64,000 bases of DNA from Phycisphaeraceae bacterium. GTDB taxonomy: Bacteria; Planctomycetota; Phycisphaerae; Phycisphaerales; Phycisphaeraceae. How positions within the stretch are numbered: position 1 is the stretch's first letter; each line of letters starts with the position of its first letter. The stretch is taken from assembly GCA_020851465.1 (NCBI GenBank), contig JADZCR010000017.1, forward strand, positions 124,001-188,000, read 5' to 3'. The notes beneath the pieces were generated by a model, which did not search any database, had not been told where the DNA came from, and saw only the letters and a list, made by a program, of their open reading frames with translations. Shown here piece after piece: positions 5,571-25,164 of the stretch. A program made the position numbers and the translations under genes.

Positions 5571-5719
5571 GAGGCCCAATGGTAACAGGCTGCGATCAGC
5601 ACCCGGCGAGCTTGCGCAGCCGCGGCTGCCCGGCACGACTTCCGCACAAGCGTTAAAATTACGGTATCGCGTTTGGTTCGATCCTCATCAACCCATTATC
5701 AGAAACGGAATGTCATTCC

Positions 5720-6757
5720 ATGGCTAAAACCACCAGGACGTTCGGCGTGGGAATCATCGGTACCGGCTGGGTTGCAGGTGCCCATATCGACAACTTCAAA
5801 CGGGTCGCCGGCTGCGAAGTCGTCGCAATCCAGTCACGCAACAAAGCCAAAGCCCGCGCCAAGGCGCAGGAGCACAGCGTGGCTGCGGCTGCTGCCTACG
5901 ACGACCTTGATGCGTTTCTCCGCCATCCCGGTCTGGATATTGTGGTTATCTGCACGCCGCACCCGAACCATCCCGCCGAGACAATCGCCGCCGCCAGAGC
6001 GGGCAAGCACATCGTGATTGAAAAGCCAGTCGCGCTGGACCGGGTGAATCTCGACAAGATGATCGCCGCCGTTGATAAAGCCAAAGTCAAGACCAGCGTC
6101 TGCTTTGAGCTGCACTGGATGGGGTTGTTCAAAAACATTCAGGCGATTCTTAAGCAGGGATTGATCGGCAATGTGTTTTACGGTGAATGCAGCTATTTCC
6201 ACGGCATCGGCCCGTGGTACGGACAGTGGTCGTGGAATGTAAAGCAGAAAATGGCAGGCGATGCACTGCTCACCGCAGGCTGTCATGCACTGGAAGTGCT
6301 GATCTGGTGCATGGGCAGTCCCGTTGTCGAAGTGGCGGCCATGAGTAATCGCAGTCTGAAGAATCCGCTGAAGTACGAATACGATCCGAACAGCGTGGCA
6401 ATCCTAAAGTTTGCCAACGGTGCGATTGGCAAGGTCGCGACGAGCATCGAATGCCGTCAGCCGTATCTTTTCCCCGTGCTTTTCCAGGGTGACAAGGGGA
6501 CGATCTGGAACGACAACCTTTCGACGATGGATTGGCCGGGCACACCCAAGGATCGCTGGGCGAAAATTCCCGCAGCGATGCCCGACTCCGGCGATGTGAA
6601 CGATCACCCGTATCTGGGACAGCTTGAATACTTCGTGGACTGCATCCGCACCGGCACGCGACCGCACAATGATCTGAAGGCCAGCGCCCACGCTCACCGT
6701 GTCATCTTCGCGATCGATCAGGCGATTCGGACCAGGAAAAACGTGAAGGTGTCGTGA
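5720..6757 (+). CDS. Gfo/Idh/MocA family oxidoreductase
   Basis: NAD(P)-dependent sugar or cyclitol dehydrogenase of 345 residues. The N-terminal Rossmann fold starts GVGIIGTGWVAGAHIDNF with the GxGxxG-type loop. The CTPHPNHPAETIAAARAGKH stretch leads to the family signature EKPVAL, whose Lys is the usual catalytic residue. The C-terminal alpha/beta domain has the DALLTAGCHALEVLIW segment, the counterpart of the family's GGxxxDxGxH with Asp replaced by Ala or Cys. Planctomycetes carry many such paralogues acting on polysaccharide-derived sugars; the substrate here is unknown. A second, distinct member lies at 52620. Confidence 0.92.
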   Translation: MAKTTRTFGVGIIGTGWVAGAHIDNFKRVAGCEVVAIQSRNKAKARAKAQEHSVAAAAAYDDLDAFLRHPGLDIVVICTPHPNHPAETIAAARAGKHIVIEKPVALDRVNLDKMIAAVDKAKVKTSVCFELHWMGLFKNIQAILKQGLIGNVFYGECSYFHGIGPWYGQWSWNVKQKMAGDALLTAGCHALEVLIWCMGSPVVEVAAMSNRSLKNPLKYEYDPNSVAILKFANGAIGKVATSIECRQPYLFPVLFQGDKGTIWNDNLSTMDWPGTPKDRWAKIPAAMPDSGDVNDHPYLGQLEYFVDCIRTGTRPHNDLKASAHAHRVIFAIDQAIRTRKNVKVS

Positions 6758-7107
6758 GGGTTGATTATTTTGGCTTACGCGGCTCGCCGGTCATTGCGGT
6801 GCGCGTAAATCCCCGCCGAGGTTTCGGTCGCGCTGATGGGTGCGCCAGTGTTCGCATCAAGTGGTGTTTTCGTGCGGCGGCACGGCGGTGTTCTGCATGG
6901 CGTGGCGCGTGCTCCAGCGGTGATTAAACGCAGCGAGGTCGCGGTACTTCCCTTGGAGGAACCCTCAAATTATTTCGCGTCAGCAGACGTGCAGCTGACG
7001 ATGAACTGAGCGTCCAACATGTCGTCGATGAAAGAGCCTGCCCATCCACCGCTTATGCTGTTTGATTGCTTTCGTGGAAACTTCAAGTCCGCTACCATGG
7101 CTCGACT
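6758..7107. other. Intergenic region with hairpin and possible gene remnant
   Basis: 350 bases without an intact gene. The first 200 bases hold a possible degraded coding remnant on the minus strand (separate entry). A 7-bp hairpin, CGTCAGC (6978-6984) with GCTGACG (6994-7000), follows but has no T run. No convincing promoter for the downstream dehydrogenase was found. Confidence 0.5.
6775..6964 (-). pseudogene. Possible frameshifted C-terminal remnant of an unknown gene
   Basis: On the minus strand an open stretch of 35 codons (6964-6857) ends in TGA. An overlapping frame continues for 27 codons from 6858 to a TAA at 6775-6777. Removing one T near 6859 would join them into a coherent 62-residue tail that contains QGKYRDLAAFNHRWSTRHAM and, later, DANTGAPISATETSAGIYA. 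No start codon context is visible. The reading is coding-like, but I do not recognise a family, and chance open frames are common at this GC content. Confidence 0.25.
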
Positions 7108-8214
7108 ATGGATTACATCCTCCCCATCGCGACACACAACGCCATCATTGAAGCCGCATACAGGAAGCGAGGCTATCACGCCGACGAAGCCGGGCAGGCC
7201 GCTCGGTTCTGTGAGCTGGCAGCGTGGCACGGGATCAAGACGCACAACGGCCTCAAGGCGCTGCACCTTGACGACCACTTCGGCAGCGGAAACAAGAAAT
7301 CACCCGGCTGCGTGCCCGGCGCGAAAATCGAAAAGCTGTCGTCAGGGCGGTTCAAGGCGGCGCAACGGTGGAACGCACACAAGAAACTCGGTCAGGCTGT
7401 CGCGTTTGAAGCGATGGATACCGCGATCAAGCTCGCCGATGAGTACGGCGTCGGGATCGTCAGCGTGGACGAGGCGTTTCACTACCTCTGGGGAGGCGGC
7501 TATGTGATGGATGCCGCCAAACGCGGCTACATCGCATACACCAACTGCACCGCCGCACTGGCGGAGGTCGTTCCCTTTGGAGGGAAGCACGCGACGCTCG
7601 GCACCAATCCTCATTCGTGGGGATTCCCGACCACGGAGGCCATCGGCTTTCCGATCGTGATCGACTGGGCGACCAGCACCGTTGCCATGGGGCGCGTCCA
7701 GCAATTCATCCGTGAGGGCAAGCCGCTCCCGCCCGGATGCGCGGTTGATGAAACGGGAAAAGAAACGACGGATGCGACAAAGGTCAAAGCTCTGCTGCCC
7801 TTCGGTCAACATAAGGGCTACGGCCTGTCGCTGATCGACGAATTGGTTGCTGCGTTCATCGGTGGCTCGCTGCCGACGATCCGTTCGCGGCCGGAGATCG
7901 CCCCGGCAGGAGAAAAGACGACACCGAGCTTTTTCTTCCAGGTGATTCATCCGGAGGCGATGAATTGCGGCCAGTTCGCCCGGAGCCGATCACAGGCGCA
8001 GAATGTCAAAGCAGTGCTCGAGGACATTCTGGGTCACGGCAACTCTCCGCCGTCCGGCCGAACCATGCTTCCCGGCCAGATCGAGCACGAAGCCGCCATG
8101 CGCAGCCGTAATGCCGGCGGGCTGCTTTTCACCGAGGCTGAGATCGGCGAATTTGTCAAAATCGCCGGGGAAGTCGGCATCCCCCTCCAGGCAGAAAATT
8201 TAAATCGTATTTGA
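7108..8214 (+). CDS. Ldh family oxidoreductase (malate/L-lactate dehydrogenase, YlbC type)
   Basis: NAD(P)-dependent 2-hydroxyacid or ureidoglycolate-type dehydrogenase of 368 residues, unrelated in fold to classical LDH/MDH. Family marks are a GHxSHG-like region replaced by AWHGIKTHNGLKAL, a nucleotide-binding segment LGTNPHSWGFPT, DWATSTVAMGRVQ, and LLPFGQHKGYGLSLIDELV near the C-terminal third. The ATG at 7108 (MDYILPI) fits the family N-terminus; an alternative TTG at 7066 adds 14 residues. Neither has a strong ribosome site. The stop codon lies inside the -35 of the next promoter. The substrate is unknown; 2-oxo/2-hydroxy sugar acids would suit the neighbourhood. Confidence 0.85.
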   Translation: MDYILPIATHNAIIEAAYRKRGYHADEAGQAARFCELAAWHGIKTHNGLKALHLDDHFGSGNKKSPGCVPGAKIEKLSSGRFKAAQRWNAHKKLGQAVAFEAMDTAIKLADEYGVGIVSVDEAFHYLWGGGYVMDAAKRGYIAYTNCTAALAEVVPFGGKHATLGTNPHSWGFPTTEAIGFPIVIDWATSTVAMGRVQQFIREGKPLPPGCAVDETGKETTDATKVKALLPFGQHKGYGLSLIDELVAAFIGGSLPTIRSRPEIAPAGEKTTPSFFFQVIHPEAMNCGQFARSRSQAQNVKAVLEDILGHGNSPPSGRTMLPGQIEHEAAMRSRNAGGLLFTEAEIGEFVKIAGEVGIPLQAENLNRI

Positions 8215-8242
8215 CTTTTCCCGACCGATTGGTAAAATACCA
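8211..8242 (+). promoter_or_regulatory. Strong sigma70-type promoter with palindrome over -10
   Basis: TTGACT (8211-8216), 16 bases, then TAAAAT (8233-8238). The inverted repeat TGGTA-AAA-TACCA (8230-8242) covers the -10 completely, so a bound regulator would block it. The -35 overlaps the stop codon of the upstream dehydrogenase. It should transcribe a leader of about 210 bases and the lipoprotein gene at 8457. Confidence 0.65.
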
Positions 8243-8244
8243 GT

Positions 8245-8456
8245 TGAACTATGGCGCCTCGCCGGATGCAAGGCTGTTCCGGGGATGATTCTCGGAGGAG
8301 GCCATCCGGTTGCAGGCGGCTGGTTGCGGCAGGAGTCCGCGGCTCGCTGTCTAAGCCGTTCGTGATTTCCCGTTTGGCGGATCGGTATCGCGGTTCGGGT
8401 TGTGCAGATGCCGCCACGCAATGTTTATGATGAACTTTTATTTTTGGGAGCACCTT
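8245..8456 (+). ncRNA. Long structured leader (candidate regulatory RNA)
   Basis: About 210 bases between a strong promoter and the lipoprotein ATG. CCGGATG near 8255 can pair with CATCCGG near 8301, enclosing an 8-bp stem with G-U pairs, and TGGCG near the 5' end can pair with CGCCA near the 3' end. No known riboswitch signature was recognised. It may be an untranslated leader or a separate small RNA. Confidence 0.3.
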
Positions 8457-9662
8457 ATGCGCCACTCTCACCGTCTCATTGCTGGTGTTCTTTTCCTTTC
8501 GCTGCTCGCACTGGCGGGCTGTGTCGAGCTGGTCGGCCAGCGACTGTCGCTGAGCTTTGATGAAAAAACCGACACGCTGAGATTGCTGATTTTTTACGAC
8601 GGTATCCACGAGAAGCCCGGAAACCATGGCGATAACGGTGCGGTACAGATCCCCAAGTTCGTGGCAGACGGAGACATGATGCTTTTCGACTGGTTCGGCC
8701 ACATCAAGATGGCGGACATTCGCACTGTCCCGGACCCCAACGAACCGTTAGCGGAGGTACAGACCGCTCTCGCCGCGTCACTCAAGACCATGCCGATCGG
8801 CCACTACCGCGATGCACGAGGTCACATCGGGGCCGCCCAACTGGTCACTATCTCGAATGCCCGCGAACTCATCAAAAAACTCAACGCTGCGATCAACAAG
8901 TCATCAATCTCATTCGACCTGCCGGACATGCCGCGCACGACAGAGATCTGGAAAGCCGCCGCCGCCAAGGATCATCAGTGGTTCACGCTCGATGGGCAGG
9001 CTGTTCGTCTGGCCTTCCCGGTTCAGCCCGGTGAGTGGCGTCTCATCAAAGCCAAAGGGCTGTGGGAGTTGTTCAACGGGATTCAACTCGACGATCAGAC
9101 AGCCGATGGCCGCGCAAAGAAGCTCGAGGATGCCCGCAAGCTGGTATCCCTGCTGGCGACCTGCACGATTTCCTATGAAGAAGCCGACGGAATGGTTTCC
9201 ATCATGCTGGGGAATCGCAGTTCTTCCAATACGTATCGCCTGTCCATCATCCACGATGAATACGAGCCGAGTCTGGAGCCTGTGGTGACGCACGAGGTAC
9301 CGCTCGATCTGGATGATGCGATCGCGCGATTCGTGATTCACAAAGTGGATAAGCCCGCGCCGGGTGTTGCGGAAATCATTTCCGCCGGCCCGCCGGAAGT
9401 CGTCCCCGCAGCCCTGCTGCGTGCCGCGACGGGAAAGGACGATTCGATTCAGGAAGCCGCTGTTGAAAAACTTTCGGAGTGGGCCAGGCAATGGAATGCG
9501 TCGCAGGGCGCGCCTGCCGCACCGGAGATCTTTGACCAGCAGAAGTGGAATGACTGGCTGTTGAATGTGGATCGGATTCCGAATGAGTTGATGCCTGATC
9601 CGAAACCTCCTGCGCCGCCGCCACCGCCGCCCGTGCCGCCGGATTCGGAGCCGGAGGAATGA
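8457..9662 (+). CDS. Large lipoprotein of unknown function with proline-rich tail
   Basis: Predicted lipoprotein of 401 residues. The signal peptide ends LLALAGC, so Cys22 should be lipidated; the residue after it is Val, so outer-membrane sorting is possible. The mature part has no family I recognise. The final 25 residues are low-complexity Pro followed by acidic residues (APPPPPPVPPDSEPEE), suggesting a flexible or wall-spanning tail. The ATG at 8457 is preceded by GGGAG with seven-base spacing and gives a proper signal peptide; longer starts do not. Transcription probably comes from the promoter at 8211 after a long leader. Confidence 0.7.
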   Translation: MRHSHRLIAGVLFLSLLALAGCVELVGQRLSLSFDEKTDTLRLLIFYDGIHEKPGNHGDNGAVQIPKFVADGDMMLFDWFGHIKMADIRTVPDPNEPLAEVQTALAASLKTMPIGHYRDARGHIGAAQLVTISNARELIKKLNAAINKSSISFDLPDMPRTTEIWKAAAAKDHQWFTLDGQAVRLAFPVQPGEWRLIKAKGLWELFNGIQLDDQTADGRAKKLEDARKLVSLLATCTISYEEADGMVSIMLGNRSSSNTYRLSIIHDEYEPSLEPVVTHEVPLDLDDAIARFVIHKVDKPAPGVAEIISAGPPEVVPAALLRAATGKDDSIQEAAVEKLSEWARQWNASQGAPAAPEIFDQQKWNDWLLNVDRIPNELMPDPKPPAPPPPPPVPPDSEPEE

Positions 9663-9697
9663 GCGGGACAGAATGAGGATGTTGTCGCACGGACGAT

Positions 9698-10471
9698 TTA
9701 CTTCTTGGGCTTGCTCTCCCAACGGGTGTACCACTCCATCAGGTCAGGTGTTGGGGCCCCATGGTGGATCGTGACACGTTTGCGTTCCGGCAGGTAGTTT
9801 CCCAGGTGCCAGCCGTTGGGGTGATAGATCATGAAGTCGCCGGCATCCATAGACGCACGGATTGCATTGGGCATGGCCTTGCAGTATTCGAGATGTACTC
9901 GATCGCGGGCGCAATACTCCGACTGATTGAGGTTGCCCGTCGCCGCCGCTGCAGCGGTCTCGCCCGGCAGATCAAAATCGCGCAGGTAACTGCCGGGTAC
10001 ATACCAGGTGCAGTTGTCCTCGTACAGAGGGCAGTTGATCTGGTTAAACCACATCGGGTTTGTATTGATCCGCCGGAACTCCTCGACATCCGGCACATTG
10101 CTGGTCTCGCGGATATCCCGATGCCAGGCCGTCGCCCCCGGAGCCTCGCTCGGCTCGATCAGCAGGCCCATCCGGCTTACGCCGTAGTTATTCATGTCGT
10201 GTCTGGGGGAGAGCAGTTGATGAATGGCATCGACGAGTACCGGCAGCGACAGGTAATCGTGAAAGGGCTTTAGCTCGTCCTCGGTGAGATAGTTGGCGAT
10301 CGGTTGGAGCCGCTGAGCGTTGGGGCCGCGCGCTTTGCGGGCCAGCTCAGGCACACGCACGGATGCTTTTCGTAGATCGCTGATCAGCGAAGAAGGGAGA
10401 ATGCCACGGAATATGACATAACCTTCCTTACGGTACTGATGAATCATCTCTTCACGGAACTCAAATGACAT
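9698..10471 (-). CDS. Phytanoyl-CoA dioxygenase (PhyH) family protein
   Basis: Fe(II)/2-oxoglutarate-dependent oxygenase of the PhyH group, 257 residues. A cupin-like core is indicated by TAWHRDIRET, giving the first His and Asp of the iron facial triad, and by a distal His in DFMIYHPNGWHLGNYLPE, followed by RVTIHHG with an Arg/Lys for 2-oxoglutarate. The ATG at 10471 is preceded by AAAGG, and the protein then begins in the usual EEMIHQYRKEGYVIFRGIL region. Planctomycetes hold many such proteins near carbohydrate genes; the substrate is not predictable. It is divergent from the GH116 gene with 94 bases between starts. Confidence 0.87.
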   Translation of the reverse strand: MSFEFREEMIHQYRKEGYVIFRGILPSSLISDLRKASVRVPELARKARGPNAQRLQPIANYLTEDELKPFHDYLSLPVLVDAIHQLLSPRHDMNNYGVSRMGLLIEPSEAPGATAWHRDIRETSNVPDVEEFRRINTNPMWFNQINCPLYEDNCTWYVPGSYLRDFDLPGETAAAAATGNLNQSEYCARDRVHLEYCKAMPNAIRASMDAGDFMIYHPNGWHLGNYLPERKRVTIHHGAPTPDLMEWYTRWESKPKK

Positions 10472-10565
10472 TGGAAACCTTTCAGGTGACAGACGTTTCA
10501 ATGTATTGTCGGACACGAGTACAAAACCGCAAGATGACAGTGAAACCACCGTTGAAAGAAAGATT

Positions 10566-13145
10566 ATGCCCGCATTAACCTGGCCCGTCCTCACCCGTTA
10601 CACCGGCACTCAACTGCTGCACGTCGCGCTGCCGCTCGGCGGCATCGGCACCGGCACGATCTCGCTCGGCGGTCGCGGGCAGTTGCGTGACTTCGAGCCG
10701 ATGAACAAGCCGAATAAGGGCTACGTTCCGAACAACACCTTTTTCGCGCTGCACGTCAGGCAGGGACGCCAGACAGTGACACGCGCTCTGGAAGGTGCGA
10801 TTGATCCAATTCAATTTGAAGGTCACTCCGGTTGCGCCGTACAGAACCACGGCTTCCCGCGCTTTCGTAAGGCTGAGTTCCTCGGCGCTTATCCGCTCGG
10901 TCAGGTCGTGCTCTCAGACCCTGGCGTGCCTGTCGCCGTGCGACTCGAAGCGTTCAACCCGTTCGTGCCCGGTGACACGGAAGCGAGCGGCATTCCCATC
11001 GCTGTGCTGCGCTACGTGCTGAAGAACAAGACCGACAAGCCGCTCACTGCGACAGTCGCAGGCTCGATGGAAAACTTCATCGGCTGCGATGGTAAGGGCA
11101 GCCGGGGCGACAACAACGTGAACGAGTACCGCACGTCCGCTTCAGAGAGCAAAAACGGAGTGCGCGGCATTTTCATGCGATCCGTCGGCCTCGATGCAAA
11201 AAACGAGTTCAACGGCACGCTGTCGCTTGGCACGACGGCGACTTCCGGGGTCAGTTACCGTCTCGCGTGGTCGCCGCAGGGTTGGGGCGCGGGGAAAATC
11301 GATTTCTGGGACGACCTTACCGACGATGGCCGTCTTACGGACCCTCCGACCCCTGACAGCTCGCACGCAGGCGGAACGCAGGCCAACCCAACCGCGTCAC
11401 TTGCCGTTGAAGTGCGCATTCCGCCGCGTGCCACGCGCGAGGTGACTTTTTTCATCTCGTGGCATTTTCCGAATCGCAAGACGTGGACACCGATGAAGCA
11501 GGATGAAACCGTCCCCCTCGGCCTGCCGGGTCAGCCCGACCCGAACCATATCGGCAACCATTACTGCGTGACCTATGCTGATGCGTGGGATGCCGCGGTG
11601 AGGACTGCCCCGCGACTCGCTGAGCTTGAAGCGGCGACGGTAAAGTTCGTTCGTGCGTTCTGCGACGCCGACCTGCCGCACGTCGTGAAAGAGGCTGCCC
11701 TCTACAACACCAGCACGCTGCGCACTCAGACCTGTTTTCGTACCGCCGACGGTCGGTTCTATGGCTGGGAGGGTTGCGCGGATGATGTCGGCTGCTGCCA
11801 CGGCTCATGCACACACGTGTGGAACTACGAGCACGCCAGTGCGTTTTTATTCGGTGCTCTTGCCCTTGATGCGCGCGAGACTGAGTTCATCTTCGCCACG
11901 AACGATCACGGCCTGATGAGCTTCCGAATCAACCTGCCGCTGGCCAAGGCGCAGGCATGGCAACTCGCCGCTGCCGATGGACAGATGGGCACGCTCATGC
12001 GGCTGTACCGTGAATGGCAACTCTCCGGCGACGATGCGGCACTGCGCCGCCTGTGGCCCAAGGCACGCAAGGCGATGGAGTTTTGCTGGATCAAAGGCGG
12101 CTGGGATGCTGACCGCGATGGCGTGATGGAAGGCTGCCAGCACAACACGATGGATGTCGAGTATTACGGTCCCAATCCGCAGATGGGTACGTGGTATCTC
12201 GGCGCGCTGCGTGCCTGCGAGAAGATGGCGAATTATCTTGGTGAGCACGATTTCGCCGCCGAATGCCGCCGGTTGTTTGAAAGCGGCCGCGCGTGGATGG
12301 ATGAGCACCTCTTTAACGGCGATTACTACGAGCATGAAATCCGCCCCTCGACAAAGGAATCGGATATCGCACCGGGCCTGCGACACGAAAGCATGGGCGC
12401 GCGAAACCTTGTTGAGCCGGAGCTGCAACTCGGCGCAGGTTGCCTCGTCGATCAACTCGTCGGACAGTACACGGCAGAGGTGCTCGGTTTGGGCTACCTG
12501 CTCGACCCGAAAAAAATACGCAAGACGCTCGACTCGCTCATGCGCTTCAACTTCAAGCGCGACCTCTCAGCACACTTCAACTCGATGCGCAGTTACGCGC
12601 TTCAGGATGAGGCTGCGATGCTGATGGCCAGCTACCCGCGCGGTCGGCGCCCTGCGAGACCGTTTCCCTACTACGGCGAGGCGATGACCGGTTTTGAATA
12701 CACCGCAGCCGTACACATGCTGTACGAGGGCATGACGAAGCAGGGGCTGGAAGTGTTCAAGGCGGTGCGCGACCGCCACAACGGCGAGCGGCGCAACCCG
12801 TTCAACGAACCCGAATGCGGCCACCATTATTCGCGTGCTATGGCGAGCTGGGCCGGTGTGCTGGCAATCACGGGTTTCCACTTCTCAGCTGTTGACCGGA
12901 CGATGACGTTCGCCGCGAGCAGGAAGCCTGTGACGTGGTTCTGGTCCACCGGTTATGCGTGGGGCACGTGTGCGCAACGCCCGATCAAGGGCAGCACAAC
13001 CGTGACGCTCCGCGTGCTGCACGGCGAACTGTCACTTCAAAAGTTCACGCTTACAGGGGGCGGCGAAGTCGAATGGCCCGACAACAGAATAAGAGCGGGG
13101 CAGGTCAAGGTTTTCCGACTCGAAAGTCGCCGTCGTGCTACCTAA
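10566..13145 (+). CDS. GH116 family glycoside hydrolase (beta-glucosidase/glucosylceramidase type)
   Basis: Large hydrolase of 859 residues with the two-part layout of GH116: an N-terminal beta-sandwich domain starting with ALPLGGIGTGTISLGGRGQL, and a C-terminal (alpha/alpha)6 barrel. The barrel carries GCCHGSCTHVWNYEHASAF, the segment WDADRDGVMEGCQHNTMD, and MTGFEYTAAVHMLYEGM near the end. The family acts on beta-glucosides, xylosides or glucosylceramides. I could not place the catalytic Glu and Asp with certainty. No signal peptide is visible, so it is probably cytoplasmic. The ATG at 10566 fits the family; the longer TTG frame adds a polar 20-residue tail. Confidence 0.88.
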   Translation: MPALTWPVLTRYTGTQLLHVALPLGGIGTGTISLGGRGQLRDFEPMNKPNKGYVPNNTFFALHVRQGRQTVTRALEGAIDPIQFEGHSGCAVQNHGFPRFRKAEFLGAYPLGQVVLSDPGVPVAVRLEAFNPFVPGDTEASGIPIAVLRYVLKNKTDKPLTATVAGSMENFIGCDGKGSRGDNNVNEYRTSASESKNGVRGIFMRSVGLDAKNEFNGTLSLGTTATSGVSYRLAWSPQGWGAGKIDFWDDLTDDGRLTDPPTPDSSHAGGTQANPTASLAVEVRIPPRATREVTFFISWHFPNRKTWTPMKQDETVPLGLPGQPDPNHIGNHYCVTYADAWDAAVRTAPRLAELEAATVKFVRAFCDADLPHVVKEAALYNTSTLRTQTCFRTADGRFYGWEGCADDVGCCHGSCTHVWNYEHASAFLFGALALDARETEFIFATNDHGLMSFRINLPLAKAQAWQLAAADGQMGTLMRLYREWQLSGDDAALRRLWPKARKAMEFCWIKGGWDADRDGVMEGCQHNTMDVEYYGPNPQMGTWYLGALRACEKMANYLGEHDFAAECRRLFESGRAWMDEHLFNGDYYEHEIRPSTKESDIAPGLRHESMGARNLVEPELQLGAGCLVDQLVGQYTAEVLGLGYLLDPKKIRKTLDSLMRFNFKRDLSAHFNSMRSYALQDEAAMLMASYPRGRRPARPFPYYGEAMTGFEYTAAVHMLYEGMTKQGLEVFKAVRDRHNGERRNPFNEPECGHHYSRAMASWAGVLAITGFHFSAVDRTMTFAASRKPVTWFWSTGYAWGTCAQRPIKGSTTVTLRVLHGELSLQKFTLTGGGEVEWPDNRIRAGQVKVFRLESRRRAT

Positions 13146-19221: not shown

Positions 19222-21057
19222 TTAATACAGCGTTTTCAATCCGTACTCTTTCCGCAGCGTTTCGATCTGCGCCTTGATCTGTTTTTCCTGCGGCTCACCC
19301 TGACGGATCAGCTCGCTGTAAAGGTGGTGGAGTTTCCAGAACGCCCACTCTTCCGCGATTTGTTTCGAGCCGTGGGCGGCTTCTTTGAGGTCTCGCGTGA
19401 AGGTGAAGTCCAGCGGCTTGTCTCCGTTATGGCCGCTCAGCCGCATCGTGAACTGCCGGTAATCGTGAAAGCGACCGAAGATTGCGAAACTTTCCCCCTG
19501 ATGGATGTTGGGCACATTGCGCGGAAAAACCTCGTCGTTATCGAGGCCGGCCACCGCGAGCTTGATGTCCTTCATGATCGGGTATCGCAGTCTGCTCATC
19601 AGGTCGCGGATGACGTTCGCAGCCTGCAACTCAGAGTCAGCATAGACACAGAATCCGCGGTTGCGGTAGGCGAGGAACTCCAGCAGCGTGCGATTTTGTC
19701 GGGGTCCGACTCCGACACAGTAGATGCTGGCCGCCAGATCGTTGTCGCGTGTGATGAGGTTGATTAATTCTCGCGTGTTCATCACGCCGCGCGTCGGCAC
19801 GCCGTCGGAGATCAGCACGAGATCATAGACACGATTGACCGCCACATCGCGCACCATGAGGCGTGAGAGAGCCTGATTCACGTCGGTGTAACCGCCGGAC
19901 TGCGCGGATTTGAGAAACTCCTGAGCAGCCGTGACGGTTTGGGCGTTATAGGGCTGGATGCTGTCAGCGTTGAAAAAGGCGGGCTTGTCGGAAAACAGCA
20001 CGATGTTGAACCGATCGCCTTCGTTGAGTGAGGAGAGCGCATCCGTGACGCCGCGTGTCACCGGACCGACCCACTCCTGCGGAACGCTGCCCGATACGTC
20101 GATGAGGATGACAACATCACGGGGCAGCGTGTGAAGTTTTTTCAGCGTGCGTTTGGGAGTGATATCCACGCGAGCGTAGGGAGCGGCATTTTTTGTCTCG
20201 AAAACCGTCACGGCATATTCAAAGTCGTCGTCGAGGTGTTCAGCTTCGGGGAGCTTGTTTTCGGGTAGGGGTGGAAGAGGCGTCAGGGGTAGGACGACGG
20301 GTGGCCGCAGCGTGGCGCCGCCGCCAGTACCTGCACCGGGGCCGCCGCCGCCGCGAGAGCCGGGCTTGTCAGCGATGGCGGTGCGACCAAGGTTTGCGCT
20401 GGCGGGAGCGCCGCCGACCCCTGTTCCACTGCCTGATCCGCCGCCGAGTCCGGTGCCTTTGGTCAGGCCCGCCAGCATTTCACCGGCTTCGCTGGCAGCG
20501 ATGCTGCCGCCTCGTGATCCGGTGCCGGTTCCTTCACCCTTGAACTCAATCTCCATGCCGGGTCCAGCGGGAAGCCGGGTGTTGACCACATCGGGCAGAG
20601 CAACCGGCGGTGCGGAGGCGTTGCTGTTACCGCCGACAGGTCCAGGCCGTATCTCCGCGGGCCGTCGCCACTCATTACCGCCTACGACCGCCGCTCCCTG
20701 TCCCCCCGAAGGCTCCAGCGAGGCGTTACCGAGCATGGTGGAACTGGTCTTGGCGAGCGTTGAAGCTGTGCCGATACCGCTGGACGCGCCAGGCCCCGTT
20801 GCCTGTTCCCCAGGATTGAACGGCACGTTGAAATCTTCAGCGATCAGATCACGATCCGCCCGCTGAACGCGGTATTCCTCCACAATCTCCGAATCAAAAA
20901 CCTCACGGCCAAGCGTCTTGTCATACAAGTACCAAAGCATCAGGCCGTGCAGCATCAAGCTGAGAATGGTGGCGATGAGGATCGCCCGTCCCTCATGTGC
21001 GCCGGCGACAGACTCTTTAGGCGGTGTCCGGTTGGCGGGTAAGGTGAAGTCGGTCAT
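19222..21057 (-). CDS. TonB-like N-terminus fused to periplasmic vWA domain protein
   Basis: Inner-membrane-anchored protein of 611 residues. A cytoplasmic stretch is followed by one helix (ILIATILSLMLHGLMLWYLY). This helix carries Ser33, His37, Gly38, Leu44 and Thr48, the spacing of the Ser16-His20-Leu27-Ser31 energy-coupling motif of E. coli TonB. Residues about 80-275 are Gly/Ala/Pro-rich linker ending in PLTPLPPLPENKLP. The vWA domain (about 312-490) has a full metal site: Asp320-x-Ser-x-Ser324, Thr391, and Asp418 in SDG. The tail (AFWKLHHLYSELIRQ, ending EYGLKTLY) resembles inter-alpha-trypsin-inhibitor-type vWA proteins, but no VIT domain is present. It is last in the exbB-exbD-TPR run, so drive by the ExbBD motor is inferred. 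The ligand is unknown. Confidence 0.85.
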   Translation of the reverse strand: MTDFTLPANRTPPKESVAGAHEGRAILIATILSLMLHGLMLWYLYDKTLGREVFDSEIVEEYRVQRADRDLIAEDFNVPFNPGEQATGPGASSGIGTASTLAKTSSTMLGNASLEPSGGQGAAVVGGNEWRRPAEIRPGPVGGNSNASAPPVALPDVVNTRLPAGPGMEIEFKGEGTGTGSRGGSIAASEAGEMLAGLTKGTGLGGGSGSGTGVGGAPASANLGRTAIADKPGSRGGGGPGAGTGGGATLRPPVVLPLTPLPPLPENKLPEAEHLDDDFEYAVTVFETKNAAPYARVDITPKRTLKKLHTLPRDVVILIDVSGSVPQEWVGPVTRGVTDALSSLNEGDRFNIVLFSDKPAFFNADSIQPYNAQTVTAAQEFLKSAQSGGYTDVNQALSRLMVRDVAVNRVYDLVLISDGVPTRGVMNTRELINLITRDNDLAASIYCVGVGPRQNRTLLEFLAYRNRGFCVYADSELQAANVIRDLMSRLRYPIMKDIKLAVAGLDNDEVFPRNVPNIHQGESFAIFGRFHDYRQFTMRLSGHNGDKPLDFTFTRDLKEAAHGSKQIAEEWAFWKLHHLYSELIRQGEPQEKQIKAQIETLRKEYGLKTLY

Positions 21058-21196
21058 GGGTCAGTTCCGCCAAAAGTACGCGAGCAAACTCGGATGCAAT
21101 CTCAAACAAGTCGTCAGGATGTCCGCCGTTTCGAGAACCGGAGCCGCCAATTTTTCTCGACCAGTCGTCGAACAACGTCAGGGTCTGATCAACGCA

Positions 21197-23848
21197 TCAT
21201 GGCGGCGAGAGTGCTTTGAGTCGGCGCGTCACCTTTTCTGAGAGCCTGGGGTCCAGTTGCTGTTCGCGGAGCTTCTTGAGGAGAAAATCCGCGTCACCTG
21301 CCTTGCCCTGATGCAGAGCAATCATCGCCTTGGCGTACGAAGCATAGGAGCTGTCGGGAAACTTCTCGGTCAGCTCCGCCAGAGCTTTATCGCCTTCATC
21401 CTTGCGGCCAAGATCATCCAGAGTTTCGGCGCGGTTGATGTACGCCAGTTCAGGAACCGGTGAAAGCTGAGGAAACGCAAAAAGTAAGCCCACGCGGTAG
21501 TAGAGTTTCTGCGCTTCCTCAAGCTCGGCGACGGCGGCGGGGCCTTCGTCATTTTGCTTGAGTGCGATCGCTTTTTGCCGGTGAATTTCCGCGCTCTCGT
21601 AAGTCGCCGACGCAGGGATGATCGTTGGCCGCTCGACATTGATCAGGCTGCGATACTCCGTCAGTGCTTCATCGAGCTTGTTCTGCGTCACCAGGGTGCG
21701 CGCCAGCTCAAGCCGGGCGTGGGACTCAAAGCCCTGCTGCATGGCAATGACTCGGCGAAAAGCATCAAGAGCACCGGCGATATCGCCGTTCTCCCGCAGG
21801 TTGCGTCCTCCGAGCACGAGAGCCTCGGCGCGGATCGCAGGCGGAGCGGTCGATTTCGAGTCGATCAGCAACGCCAGATATTTCAAGGACTCTTTGGGTT
21901 GCTTCTGATTCGTCTGCCACTGACCCAGCCACAGCAATTCATCGGGACGCAAGGCACTGGTGCCGACGAGCTTTTCCAGCGCGGTCAATGTCACGGCGGC
22001 GGCTGCGATGCTCTTGTCGTCCGTCTTTTGCCGCTGGTACTGACCCATGAGCCGCAGAGCGTTGGCCTTCATGGGGGAAGGAAAATCTTTCGCATCGGCA
22101 CTGGCTTGCAGATCCGCCATCGCGTCGTCGGACTTTTGTTTGGCGACCAGAATCAATCCACGGTAGTAACGCGCTTCGGTGAGAAAACGACTTTGCGGAT
22201 GCTTCGTCAGGAGCTGATTGAATTGATCGAGTGCAGCATCGAGCTTGTTGAGTTTCACCAGCGACATCGCCCGCAGATACATCGCTTCCTGTTCGATCAG
22301 CGGTGCGATGCCCGCCGTTTGCAAGACACCCGCGGCGGCGGACTCGGCCTGATCGAGCTTGCCCAGCTTGTCCCAAAGGTTGGCCAACCTTAACCCGATC
22401 ACCGCGGCCTGCGCGGTGTCGGCCTTTCCCGCAGCGGTGCCCAGATAAGACTTGTAATCGTCGATGGCAGCCTGAGTCTGTCCTGCGTTGTCGTAAAGAC
22501 GGGCACGCTGGAAAACCGCACGCGCGTAGTCGGGCTTATCCGGGCCTTGATTGACCAGCGAGGTCAAGCGCGCCGCTCCGGCTGCGGGATCGCTGGCACC
22601 CTGTGTCGTCGCCAGCAGCATCTCGGCGTCAGGCACCAAAGGCGATTTAGGAAAGGTGCTCGAAAAATTCGTCAGCGTCTGCACAACGTCAGCGGGCTTA
22701 TTCAACTCAACCTGCGCCAGAGCGAGCTTGTATGTCACCTTGTCGCGCAGCTCTGATTCTCCGCCCTGAGCCAGCAGTGATTGAAAGGTCTCCGCGGCTT
22801 TGTCGTTCTGCTTTAATTCCAGTTGCGCGGAACCGACCAGATATCGAGCGGTGTAAAGATCATTGCCCTGGATCGGTGAGCCGCTGGCGACAGTCAGCTT
22901 GAACTGATCGGCAGTCTTGAGCAACTCGTCAAACTGCTTGGCGGAAAAGCGCGACCAGAGCAGGCCGAGCACCGCCGGCCCGAACTGCGGCGTACTCTGG
23001 TGGCCGGTGACGATCGCGTTGAAGTATTCGATGGCCTTGGGAAACTGCCCGCTCTTGAGGCTCAGATCGCCTGCCATCATCAGCGCGCCGGGCAGTGTAA
23101 GTTTGTCGGCATTGGCGACAGCCTGCGCGAGCGTAGCCTGGGCGTCGGCGACTTTGTCCATTTCAATCTGCACCTGCGCGGCTTCGAGCAGAGCACGACC
23201 CTTGAGCGGCGATTCGACGCCGGCGGCGGCGATCAGAGCTTTGGCGGCTCCGGGCAGATTCCCCGCGCCTCGATAGGCCAGACCCGTCAGATAGAGCGTC
23301 GTGGCTTTCGATGCTGCGTCGAGCGAGTCGAGCTTGATCTTTTCCAGCGTGGCGACCGCTTCGTCGTACCGCTCCCGGGAGATCGCAATCTGTCCGCGCA
23401 ACTGCAACACCGTGTGTTCCGGAACGAGCGAGGGCGGCGGATCGGTTGCGGCAGCAAGCAGTCGAGCGGCACCTTCGTTGTCGCCTGCTCGCTGTGCAAG
23501 CACAGCCTGATAAAAACGCGCATCGCTTCGGCGCGAATCGTCCGGGTATGACTTGAGAAAATCATCAAACGCTTCGGCTGCGAGTTTGTCTTCGCCGCGC
23601 TGAAGCAGACGATAGGCAAAGATGAACTGCTGCTGCGCTTCGACATTTTCAGCGTAAAGCGGCAGCGACAGCAGAGACGACGCAAGCAGAGCGACGAATA
23701 GCAACGATCGCGTAAAGACATTCTGCGGACGGCCGGGAAACAGCGAGCATCCTTGGGGTCGGTCGCTGACGTTCTCGGCAGCGTGCGGTTGCGGCTTCCC
23801 CGGCTTGGAACCATTCTGCGGTGATCGGCAAGTGGTTATTGCCATCAA
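21197..23848 (-). CDS. Periplasmic TPR-repeat protein
   Basis: Exported protein of 883 residues built almost wholly of tetratricopeptide-like repeats. A long N-region precedes a hydrophobic signal (SLLFVALLASSLLSLPLYA), cleaved near AENVEAQQQF. Repeats begin with FIFAYRLLQRGEDKLAAEAF and continue to the C-terminus, resembling CpoB/YbgF and BamD helical scaffolds. The start overlaps the exbD stop (ATGA type), so translation is coupled; Met1 or Met2 is possible, and a start nearer the signal is conceivable. In TonB2-type systems a TPR protein is encoded with ExbB, ExbD and TonB, so it probably scaffolds the machine in the periplasm. Confidence 0.85.
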   Translation of the reverse strand: MMAITTCRSPQNGSKPGKPQPHAAENVSDRPQGCSLFPGRPQNVFTRSLLFVALLASSLLSLPLYAENVEAQQQFIFAYRLLQRGEDKLAAEAFDDFLKSYPDDSRRSDARFYQAVLAQRAGDNEGAARLLAAATDPPPSLVPEHTVLQLRGQIAISRERYDEAVATLEKIKLDSLDAASKATTLYLTGLAYRGAGNLPGAAKALIAAAGVESPLKGRALLEAAQVQIEMDKVADAQATLAQAVANADKLTLPGALMMAGDLSLKSGQFPKAIEYFNAIVTGHQSTPQFGPAVLGLLWSRFSAKQFDELLKTADQFKLTVASGSPIQGNDLYTARYLVGSAQLELKQNDKAAETFQSLLAQGGESELRDKVTYKLALAQVELNKPADVVQTLTNFSSTFPKSPLVPDAEMLLATTQGASDPAAGAARLTSLVNQGPDKPDYARAVFQRARLYDNAGQTQAAIDDYKSYLGTAAGKADTAQAAVIGLRLANLWDKLGKLDQAESAAAGVLQTAGIAPLIEQEAMYLRAMSLVKLNKLDAALDQFNQLLTKHPQSRFLTEARYYRGLILVAKQKSDDAMADLQASADAKDFPSPMKANALRLMGQYQRQKTDDKSIAAAAVTLTALEKLVGTSALRPDELLWLGQWQTNQKQPKESLKYLALLIDSKSTAPPAIRAEALVLGGRNLRENGDIAGALDAFRRVIAMQQGFESHARLELARTLVTQNKLDEALTEYRSLINVERPTIIPASATYESAEIHRQKAIALKQNDEGPAAVAELEEAQKLYYRVGLLFAFPQLSPVPELAYINRAETLDDLGRKDEGDKALAELTEKFPDSSYASYAKAMIALHQGKAGDADFLLKKLREQQLDPRLSEKVTRRLKALSPP

Positions 23849-24276
23849 TTCCCCACTTCCGCCTTGGGCTTGATTGTTCCCAGCGAGACATCCTTGAGTC
23901 CAGCTTTGTACGCCAGGTCCATGACTTTGACGGTCATCCCCAGGCGGCTTTCACGGTCAGCACGGATGACGACGGACTCGTTGGGGTAGAGTTGCGCCAG
24001 TTCACCGAGCTTCGGCAGCAGGGACTCCGGAGTGTAAAGACGATCACCGAGGAAGATTTGTTCATCGCGGGTGACCGTCACGACGATTTGTGTGCGTCCG
24101 CCGCCACCCGCCTTGGCGGCCTCCTGGGTGGGCAGCGATACGTTGATCTGCCGGTCATCGTCACGGAAGGCAGCGATCGTGATGAAAAAGGTAAGAATCA
24201 AAAACAGCACGTCCACCATGGTCGTCGGCGGACGCCAGCCGTAGTTGGTCTCTTCAGGCGGGCCGGCAAAGCTCAT
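23845..24276 (-). CDS. exbD: ExbD/TolR family proton-channel subunit
   Basis: Inner-membrane motor component of 143 residues. It has a short cytoplasmic N-terminus, a single helix with the essential acidic residue (Asp22 in TTMVDVLFLILTFFIT, equivalent to ExbD Asp25) and a periplasmic domain with FLGDRLYTPESLLPKLGEL and SVVIRADRESRLGMTVKVMD, typical of ExbD/TolR. It overlaps both neighbours by four bases, so exbB, exbD and the TPR gene are translationally coupled. With ExbB it would convert proton flow into movement of a partner, here most likely the TonB-like vWA protein. Confidence 0.93.
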   Translation of the reverse strand: MSFAGPPEETNYGWRPPTTMVDVLFLILTFFITIAAFRDDDRQINVSLPTQEAAKAGGGGRTQIVVTVTRDEQIFLGDRLYTPESLLPKLGELAQLYPNESVVIRADRESRLGMTVKVMDLAYKAGLKDVSLGTIKPKAEVGN

Positions 24277-25064
24277 GACTGACCTCGCTTGATGTAGTCG
24301 GTGATGCTGTGAACGATCTGTTCAGCGTCAGACAAGGCGCGGAGTGCGCGGGACTTGATGATCGAGTGGAAGACGACAGCCATGATCGCGACGATCAGAC
24401 CAAAGAACGTCGCGGTCATCGCGCCGCCGATGGATTGTGCCAGCACTTTGGAACTGACGCTGGCCGACTCACGATTGATACCGAAAAACGCCTGGAGCAT
24501 TCCCAGCACGGTTCCCAGCAGGCCGAGCATGGGCGCGATGCTGGAGAGATCGATCAGGTAGCTGATGTGATTCCAGAGGATGGCGGCGCGGCGGTTGCCT
24601 TCCGATTCGATGATGTTCATCAGATGTGAAGCGTCACGGTTCGCGTTTTCAAAGCAGCGTTGCAGGATGCTGGCGGTGAAGATCTGCCGATTGTTGCGGC
24701 AGAGATGTGCCGCCTGCTCGTACTGCTTGGCTACGGCGAGCTTGGTTACATCATCCACAAAGGTCTGCGGTGCCAGCGCGCTGCTGTTAATCGTCAGCAG
24801 GTAGTAGATGAATATCACCACGGTAACGACGCTGAGGCAGACGATGATCGTGTTGATCACCGGGCTGGTCATGTAGAGGTCCGCCAGCGAGGGCAGCTCG
24901 CCGCGGATCGGGCTGGTGGTGCCGACCCCGGCAGGCGTGCCGGGCGTGGCACCCGTGGGTGTGCCCTGTGCCCAGAGCATGGCTCCACCTATGAGGACGA
25001 TGATGGCAACCCAGATCATTCTCAGAAAAGAGAGAGGGCTTCGGCCGGCCGGTCGCGTCAACAT
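24273..25064 (-). CDS. exbB: MotA/TolQ/ExbB family proton-channel protein
   Basis: Inner-membrane channel subunit of 263 residues. An extra N-terminal hydrophobic stretch (MIWVAIIVLIGGAMLWAQG), signal-like, precedes a Pro/Thr/Gly-rich periplasmic segment, which is seen in long ExbB/TolQ variants. Three helices follow: around NTIIVCLSVVTVVIFIYYLL, in APMLGLLGTVLGMLQAFFG, and in MTATFFGLIVAIMAVVFHSI. The GLLGTVLGM motif is diagnostic. The ATG at 25064 has AGGGAG at good spacing. It is first in the operon, with a promoter at 25136-25164. Confidence 0.92.
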   Translation of the reverse strand: MLTRPAGRSPLSFLRMIWVAIIVLIGGAMLWAQGTPTGATPGTPAGVGTTSPIRGELPSLADLYMTSPVINTIIVCLSVVTVVIFIYYLLTINSSALAPQTFVDDVTKLAVAKQYEQAAHLCRNNRQIFTASILQRCFENANRDASHLMNIIESEGNRRAAILWNHISYLIDLSSIAPMLGLLGTVLGMLQAFFGINRESASVSSKVLAQSIGGAMTATFFGLIVAIMAVVFHSIIKSRALRALSDAEQIVHSITDYIKRGQS

Positions 25065-25135: not shown

Positions 25136-25164
25136 ATTCTAGAGGGAATGGCGCCGTAAGTCAG
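25136..25164 (-). promoter_or_regulatory. Promoter of the exbB-exbD-TPR-vWA operon
   Basis: On the minus strand CTGACT (25164-25159), 17 bases, then TAGAAT (25141-25136). This would start transcription near 25129, about 65 bases before the exbB ATG. It is the only good promoter seen upstream of the operon. Confidence 0.6.

Follow-up and report, generated by a model that had tools for sequence, protein, structure and literature searches.

A four-gene operon, exbB-exbD-TPR-vWA, was found on the minus strand of a 64,000-nucleotide stretch of the genome of a Phycisphaeraceae bacterium (GenBank assembly GCA_020851465.1, contig JADZCR010000017.1, positions 124,001 to 188,000), hereafter called the window. 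The last gene codes for a protein with a TonB-type transmembrane (TM) helix at its N-terminus, a long disordered linker and a C-terminal head containing a von Willebrand factor A (vWA) domain; the gene before it codes for a tetratricopeptide repeat (TPR) protein. It is considered probable, with some reserve, that the ExbB/ExbD motor energises this TonB-like anchored vWA protein through the Ser33/His37 face of its helix, and so pulls on a metal-dependent head bound to a partner in the envelope. Gene order, helix motif, motor residues, linker, head fold and a complete metal ion-dependent adhesion site (MIDAS) were read from the sequence or from a structural model; docking, force, metal binding and the partner are what we infer from them.

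In the proposed mechanism, proton flow through ExbB/ExbD would energise the anchored vWA protein, whose TM helix may dock on ExbB via Ser33/His37. The flexible linker would span the periplasm and bear the integrin-like vWA/hybrid head where TonB has its C-terminal domain. Most probably the metal site of the head holds a putative partner in the envelope, and the proton flow of the motor would exert a pull on this bond, with the soluble periplasmic TPR protein probably serving as a partner or adaptor. TonB and TolA are the well-studied periplasmic arms by which energy from the inner membrane is delivered to the outer one. Should arms with a vWA head act likewise, force from the motor would be applied to another class of targets via a metal-dependent, integrin-like bond, and the conserved operon, His37, Asp320 and a sister lineage without ExbB make the idea testable by single mutants.

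Operons of this kind have already been described. Williams-Jones et al. 2025 (PMC12204202), the only relevant study found in the literature on ExbB/TolQ with vWA, reported vWA 'force transducers' with an SHLS helix in the Planctomycetes-Verrucomicrobia-Chlamydiae (PVC) group, encoded beside TPR, tolQ and tolR genes. These proteins consist of the SHLS helix, a motor box, a linker and a vWA head; proton-motive-force drive was proposed, the helix was docked on the motor in models of relatives, and function was left unassigned with no phenotype reported (PMC12204202). New here are the conservation pattern, the contrast with a lineage called f37, the likeness of the head to a heavy chain and the tests of genome context.

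Conservation of the helix and of the motor

Residues Ser33, His37, Gly38, Leu44 and Thr48 of the vWA protein are in exact register with Ser16, His20, Gly21, Leu27 and Ser31 of Escherichia coli TonB, and the helix residues are also in register with Ser18, His22, Leu29 and Ser33 of E. coli TolA (both from the MG1655 record). The spacing claimed for these five residues in the first-pass annotation of the window was borne out by the residue count and by both registers, the SHLS-type motif reading S33-H37-L44-T48 with its final Ser replaced by Thr. The helix His was present in 37/37 homologues, and the position four residues before it was Ser in 33 and Thr in two of the 37, while the remainder of the N-terminal half drifts among the homologues. 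Since His and Ser are kept and the positions of TonB Leu27 and Ser31 are variable, the transferable core of the motif is, on the aligned sequences, Ser-x3-His. The pattern [ST]x3H occurred in only 1 of 216 TM-like segments of the other open reading frames (ORFs) of the loci, that one belonging to another vWA protein beside exbB-exbD-exbD, and by this measure the helix motif is more than chance.

In the Ton and Tol systems the Ser/His pair of the helix is a hub of contacts with TM1 of ExbB/TolQ, as seen by cryo-electron microscopy (review PMC12905483). The equivalents of ExbB Thr148, Thr181 and the TM1 residue Ser34 were invariant in 31/31 sequences, and Asp22 of ExbD, equivalent to ExbD Asp25, was invariant in 30/30. 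Judged by sequence, the complementary side is conserved too, the Ser34 equivalent being the Ser which receives the helix of TonB.

Beyond the helix, the long Gly/Pro-rich linker that had been noted was seen again as a region, residues 54-268, that is mostly disordered in the model. Near its start the segment YRVQRADRDL begins at His+25, like the D-box of TonB (I45 = His20+25), whose strand starts 25 residues past His in E. coli (PMC10907165); the D-box alternation fits only partly. As the segment was modelled with low confidence and no strand by AlphaFold2, its reading as a D-box or motor box is a lead that is only suggestive.

Fold and metal site of the head

The head was modelled confidently, with a predicted local distance difference test (pLDDT) score above 90 at most residues from 280 on (AlphaFold2). 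Its top structural match was heavy chain 1 of the inter-alpha-trypsin inhibitor (ITI) (6fpy; Z 25.0, 325 residues, root-mean-square deviation 4.5 with VIA-align, the alignment beginning at residue 276; Foldseek E 1e-23), a protein described as integrin-like (PMC7170535). By sequence, phmmer matched the head to ITIH4 (E 3.3e-16) and ITIH1 (E 6.6e-13), and the NCBIfam sortase-target model TIGR03788 matched residues 287-608, below its cut-off. All five MIDAS residues are present and Pfam gave no match to TonB_C (PF03544) in the vWA protein, in agreement with the earlier description of a vWA C-terminus with a complete metal site and no TonB C-terminal domain.

In the model, strands 279-301 and 493-556 flank the vWA domain, and the linker joins the sandwich that they belong to, not the vWA domain itself. 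ITI heavy chains and bacterial VIT-vWA proteins (TIGR03788-like) likewise have a MIDAS vWA inserted in a hybrid beta-sandwich, followed by C-terminal helices; they differ in their N-terminal VIT/Hybrid2 domain, whose place is taken in the vWA protein of the window by the anchored helix and linker. Because of the heavy-chain fold, the TIGR03788 match and the insertion of vWA in the sandwich, the protein has the look of a VIT-vWA head in which the VIT domain has given way to a TonB-type helix and linker, a direction of change that we infer. VIT-vWA proteins of 700-900 amino acids, at first pulled in as homologues, were separated by architecture and by the tree of heads, in which their heads form a separate, fully supported clade.

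This architecture also bears on a different output for the motor, namely inside-out activation, in which the motor, acting via the linker and hybrid sandwich, would change how tightly the vWA metal site binds, as force and the swing of the hybrid domain do in integrins, and give regulated adhesion or assembly and not transport. The inserted vWA, the entry of the linker into the sandwich and the integrin-like top match all speak for such a switch. No sign of two affinity states was found, however, and likeness of fold does not show mechanism; nor are ITI heavy chains known to be activated by force. Inside-out activation is accordingly regarded as unlikely.

Distribution of the operon

A close homologue, or a fragment of one at a contig edge, was found in 26 of 51 genomes of the same family, and in the family the order is exbB-exbD-TPR-vWA at every locus whose contig extends far enough. 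Of the high-quality family genomes, about half lack the operon. A search of planctomycete genomes for the same gene order had been advised; the order was found in 34 complete operons, the window included, from three phyla (Planctomycetota, Auribacterota and Kiritimatiellota). A scan of named genomes placed the family in Phycisphaeraceae/Phycisphaerae and found the operon also in one Candidatus Auribacterota and one Kiritimatiellae genome; in Omnitrophota, TPR-vWA was seen at the edge of a contig. More distant families of Planctomycetota have the operon as well. It is also present in the complete genomes of two cultured relatives, strains ZRK32 and syqfu.

A lineage without the helix motif

The five genomes of lineage f37 (Planctomycetota) code for vWA proteins of the transducer family without Ser-x3-His, and in the tree of heads the f37 clade is nested among motif-bearing proteins. 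exbB was in the operon at none of the four f37 loci with sufficient flanks (0/4), and at three loci the vWA gene was found with no exbB, exbD or family TPR detected in about 20 kb. As the motif and the local exbB vanish together, the simplest reading is that f37 would represent a single loss of coupling.

Several observations weigh against coupling through the helix. The f37 locus L175/L184 retains exbD-TPR-vWA though the motif is lost, which weakens the claim in its strict form; upstream of these three lies a gene with a transglutaminase domain, and a separate exbB/exbD set is on the other strand. The f37 proteins lost the motif in a single evolutionary event, and for that reason f37 supports the link between helix and motor but does not prove it. 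The equivalents of ExbB Glu176 and Trp38 are not conserved, and two of the four SHLS positions vary: Leu was found at the position of TonB Leu27 in 7/37 homologues and Ser or Thr at that of Ser31 in 11/37, so that Leu44 and Thr48 do not hold as family features. The proposed alignment of the helix to TonB and TolA was exact in residue register, but a profile of the helix region gave no TonB match among PDB sequences (unsurprising with about 58 columns), and sequence kinship of the helix with TonB therefore stays unsupported. No experiment on any member of the family was found in the literature searched.

The first-pass annotation had proposed that the TonB-type helix couples ExbBD to the vWA head, and had named homologues in the same gene order without the Ser/His pattern as evidence to the contrary. 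The helix His was present in all 34 complete operons, with Ser in nearly all, and the motor residues named above are invariant, as coupling would have it, and the proposal passed most of this check; L175/L184, with exbD-TPR-vWA and no motif, is the part of the record which does not agree.

The f37 proteins could also be accommodated if vWA and TPR formed an envelope assembly or chaperone complex which ExbBD merely anchors or localises, without energy transfer. The anchored vWA protein persists in f37 although the His motif is gone and the locus has no exbB, so that the head can serve a purpose uncoupled; TPR and vWA, moreover, are domains that mediate interactions of many kinds. A mere anchor would nevertheless not be expected to keep the proton-path residues of ExbB/ExbD and the helix His invariant, and this explanation is given only a small chance of being correct.

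Comparison with Ton, Tol and other motor systems

The operon resembles TonB-ExbB-ExbD in its motor residues, the Ser16/His20 helix face and the long linker, and differs from it by lacking TonB_C, by its different head, by the extra TPR gene and by a host in which no receptors were detected. A TonB-like helix encoded beside exbBD might be taken to mean that the vWA protein substitutes for TonB and powers TonB-dependent outer-membrane receptors. The head is, however, not of the TonB C-terminal fold, and hidden Markov model (HMM) searches detected neither TonB_C nor the receptor plug (PF07715) in the host genome, nor in seven further high-quality genomes bearing the operon. TonB-dependent import is therefore an unlikely task for the operon; the absence of receptors largely refutes the substitution, divergent plugs below HMM detection being its sole escape, and it is regarded as extremely improbable.

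With TolA-TolQ-TolR and Tol-Pal the operon shares the Ser/His helix, the motor and a neighbouring gene for a TPR protein (CpoB in Tol-Pal), but it has no TolA C-terminal domain and encodes neither TolB nor Pal. The models that the TPR protein fits best are those of tol-pal YbgF/CpoB, although TPR sequences match indiscriminately; its best NCBIfam model was tol_pal_ybgF (E 3.8e-39 over 7 stretches), a match which is likely to be in part generic TPR similarity. That the operon is a stand-in for Tol-Pal in outer-membrane constriction is very unlikely. It is missing too often among the high-quality family genomes, as given above, and OmpA/Pal domains (51/51 family genomes) and TolB-like propellers (49/51, below the curated cut-off) were present with or without it; as the operon and these domains do not exclude one another, it is unlikely to replace Tol-Pal.

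The closest system is that of the PVC vWA transducers (Tichowtungia family), which share the anchored SHLS-type helix, the disordered linker, the vWA C-terminus and the adjacent TPR, tolQ-like and tolR-like genes. Unlike them, the window has one exbD and not the pair often seen there, and the Leu and final Ser of the motif are not conserved in its family; their head was compared to YfbK (PMC12204202), whereas the head described here is an ITI-heavy-chain vWA+hybrid module. Gliding has been offered as an analogue of these transducers (PMC12204202). The CglB/Agl-Glt gliding machinery of Myxococcus, compared from the literature only, is alike in having a TolQR-type motor with a vWA adhesin. There, however, the adhesin sits at the surface as a protein of its own and is not what the motor is coupled to.

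Layout of the operon and neighbouring genes

The exbB-exbD-TPR-vWA set first proposed for positions 19222-25064 was recovered as four minus-strand ORFs with Pfam domains MotA_ExbB, ExbD, TPR repeats and VWA, respectively (Table 1). Of the ATGA junctions that had been claimed, only the one between exbB and exbD (24273-24276) stood; exbD and TPR meet at TGATG, and TPR and vWA are separated by a gap of 139 nt in this genome, while many relatives overlap at that junction. An ATGA persists at the TPR stop (21197-21200), but the frame opened there closes after three codons, and the vWA start lies 139 nt on. Given the overlap used by many relatives, this suggests that the vWA start has shifted in this genome. 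A shared promoter had been placed at 25136; the promoter-like match ending there was at chance level (1 observed, 1.4 expected in shuffles) and the claim was dropped. The N-termini of relatives of the TPR protein are also signal-like.

Table 1 Features of the operon in the window and loci compared with it
Feature	Position	Strand	Remarks
exbB/tolQ-like gene	24273..25064	(-)	ATG 25064, frame open to 25136; PF01618 E 1.1e-23
exbD/tolR-like gene	23845..24276	(-)	PF02472 E 1.5e-20; single copy
TPR protein gene	21197..23845	(-)	TPR_16 E 5.3e-32; periplasmic, signal-peptide-like N-terminus, no lipobox
vWA transducer gene	19222..21057	(-)	611 amino acids; PF13768 E 5.2e-14, PF00092 E 5.5e-11
N-terminal TM helix, residues 19-45, with Ser33/His37	20923..21003	(-)	Predicted helix, pLDDT ~96 at residues 31-40 (AlphaFold2)
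Candidate D-box/motor-box-like YRVQRADRDL, residues 62-71	20845..20874	(-)	Consensus of relatives RVxRAxxD
Disordered Gly/Pro-rich linker, residues 54-268	20254..20898	(-)	pLDDT < 50 in 54-97, 113-151, 161-268
Integrin-like head, residues 275-611	19225..20235	(-)	Hybrid beta-sandwich, vWA inserted, C-terminal helices; structure and sequence matches
MIDAS DxSxS, Asp320-Ser322-Ser324	20086..20100	(-)	Invariant in 24/24 and in 21 sequences of alignment A3
MIDAS Thr391	19885..19887	(-)	Invariant in the same homologue alignments
MIDAS Asp418	19804..19806	(-)	Invariant in the same homologue alignments
f37 loci			L175/L184, L176/L182, L177/L183, L179, L181
Second locus (vWA2), L209	G000:C6:90000-104000		vWA2 5710-6870, exported protein 7290-8450, exbB 8552-9439, exbD 9544-10038, exbD 10090-10653
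Further vWA2 loci			L188, L210-L222, L224-L228

The window operon has one exbD. Among the family operons a second, divergent exbD between exbD and TPR was seen in genus g33 only (L032 12462-12881; L061 2964-3377), an arrangement which is the paired-tolR form described in the literature (PMC12204202).

Neighbour analysis of the loci found no gene beyond the four conserved as a unit with them. Recurring neighbours were housekeeping genes only (dtd-like downstream, bioB-like upstream), apart from two small proteins in some genera, and the MacB-like gene downstream in the window was not among them. The two small conserved proteins (about 92-115 amino acids, with an N-terminal hydrophobic segment) are encoded on the same strand 0.3-1.7 kb upstream of exbB in several Phycisphaeraceae genera (L034, L036, L041, L043, L048, L049 and others), and nothing in the window clearly matches them.

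A second vWA-ExbBD locus

A second module in the family, vWA2, consists of the vWA2 gene, a gene for a predicted exported protein, exbB, exbD and exbD. The vWA2 helix follows the pattern PW..S-x3-H, with His in 23/23 and Ser in 20/23 members, and most members have a DASGS motif. vWA2 matches were found in 48/51 family genomes and in 33/33 of the high-quality ones, including genomes without the first operon. In the host genome (G000) the adjacent exbB and two exbD were confirmed by Pfam, and the vWA2 head was under the Pfam reporting level. A second ExbBD locus with the same helix motif, near-universal in the family, points to a general theme of vWA-headed arms in Phycisphaeraceae. The broadest reading would have a proton-driven motor mechanically switching or loading an integrin-like, metal-dependent head, with the near-universal second locus alongside, and Planctomycetes using vWA heads as general tips on TonB-type arms; it is offered as a speculation with rather little likelihood. 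The vWA2 genes sometimes occur two in tandem.

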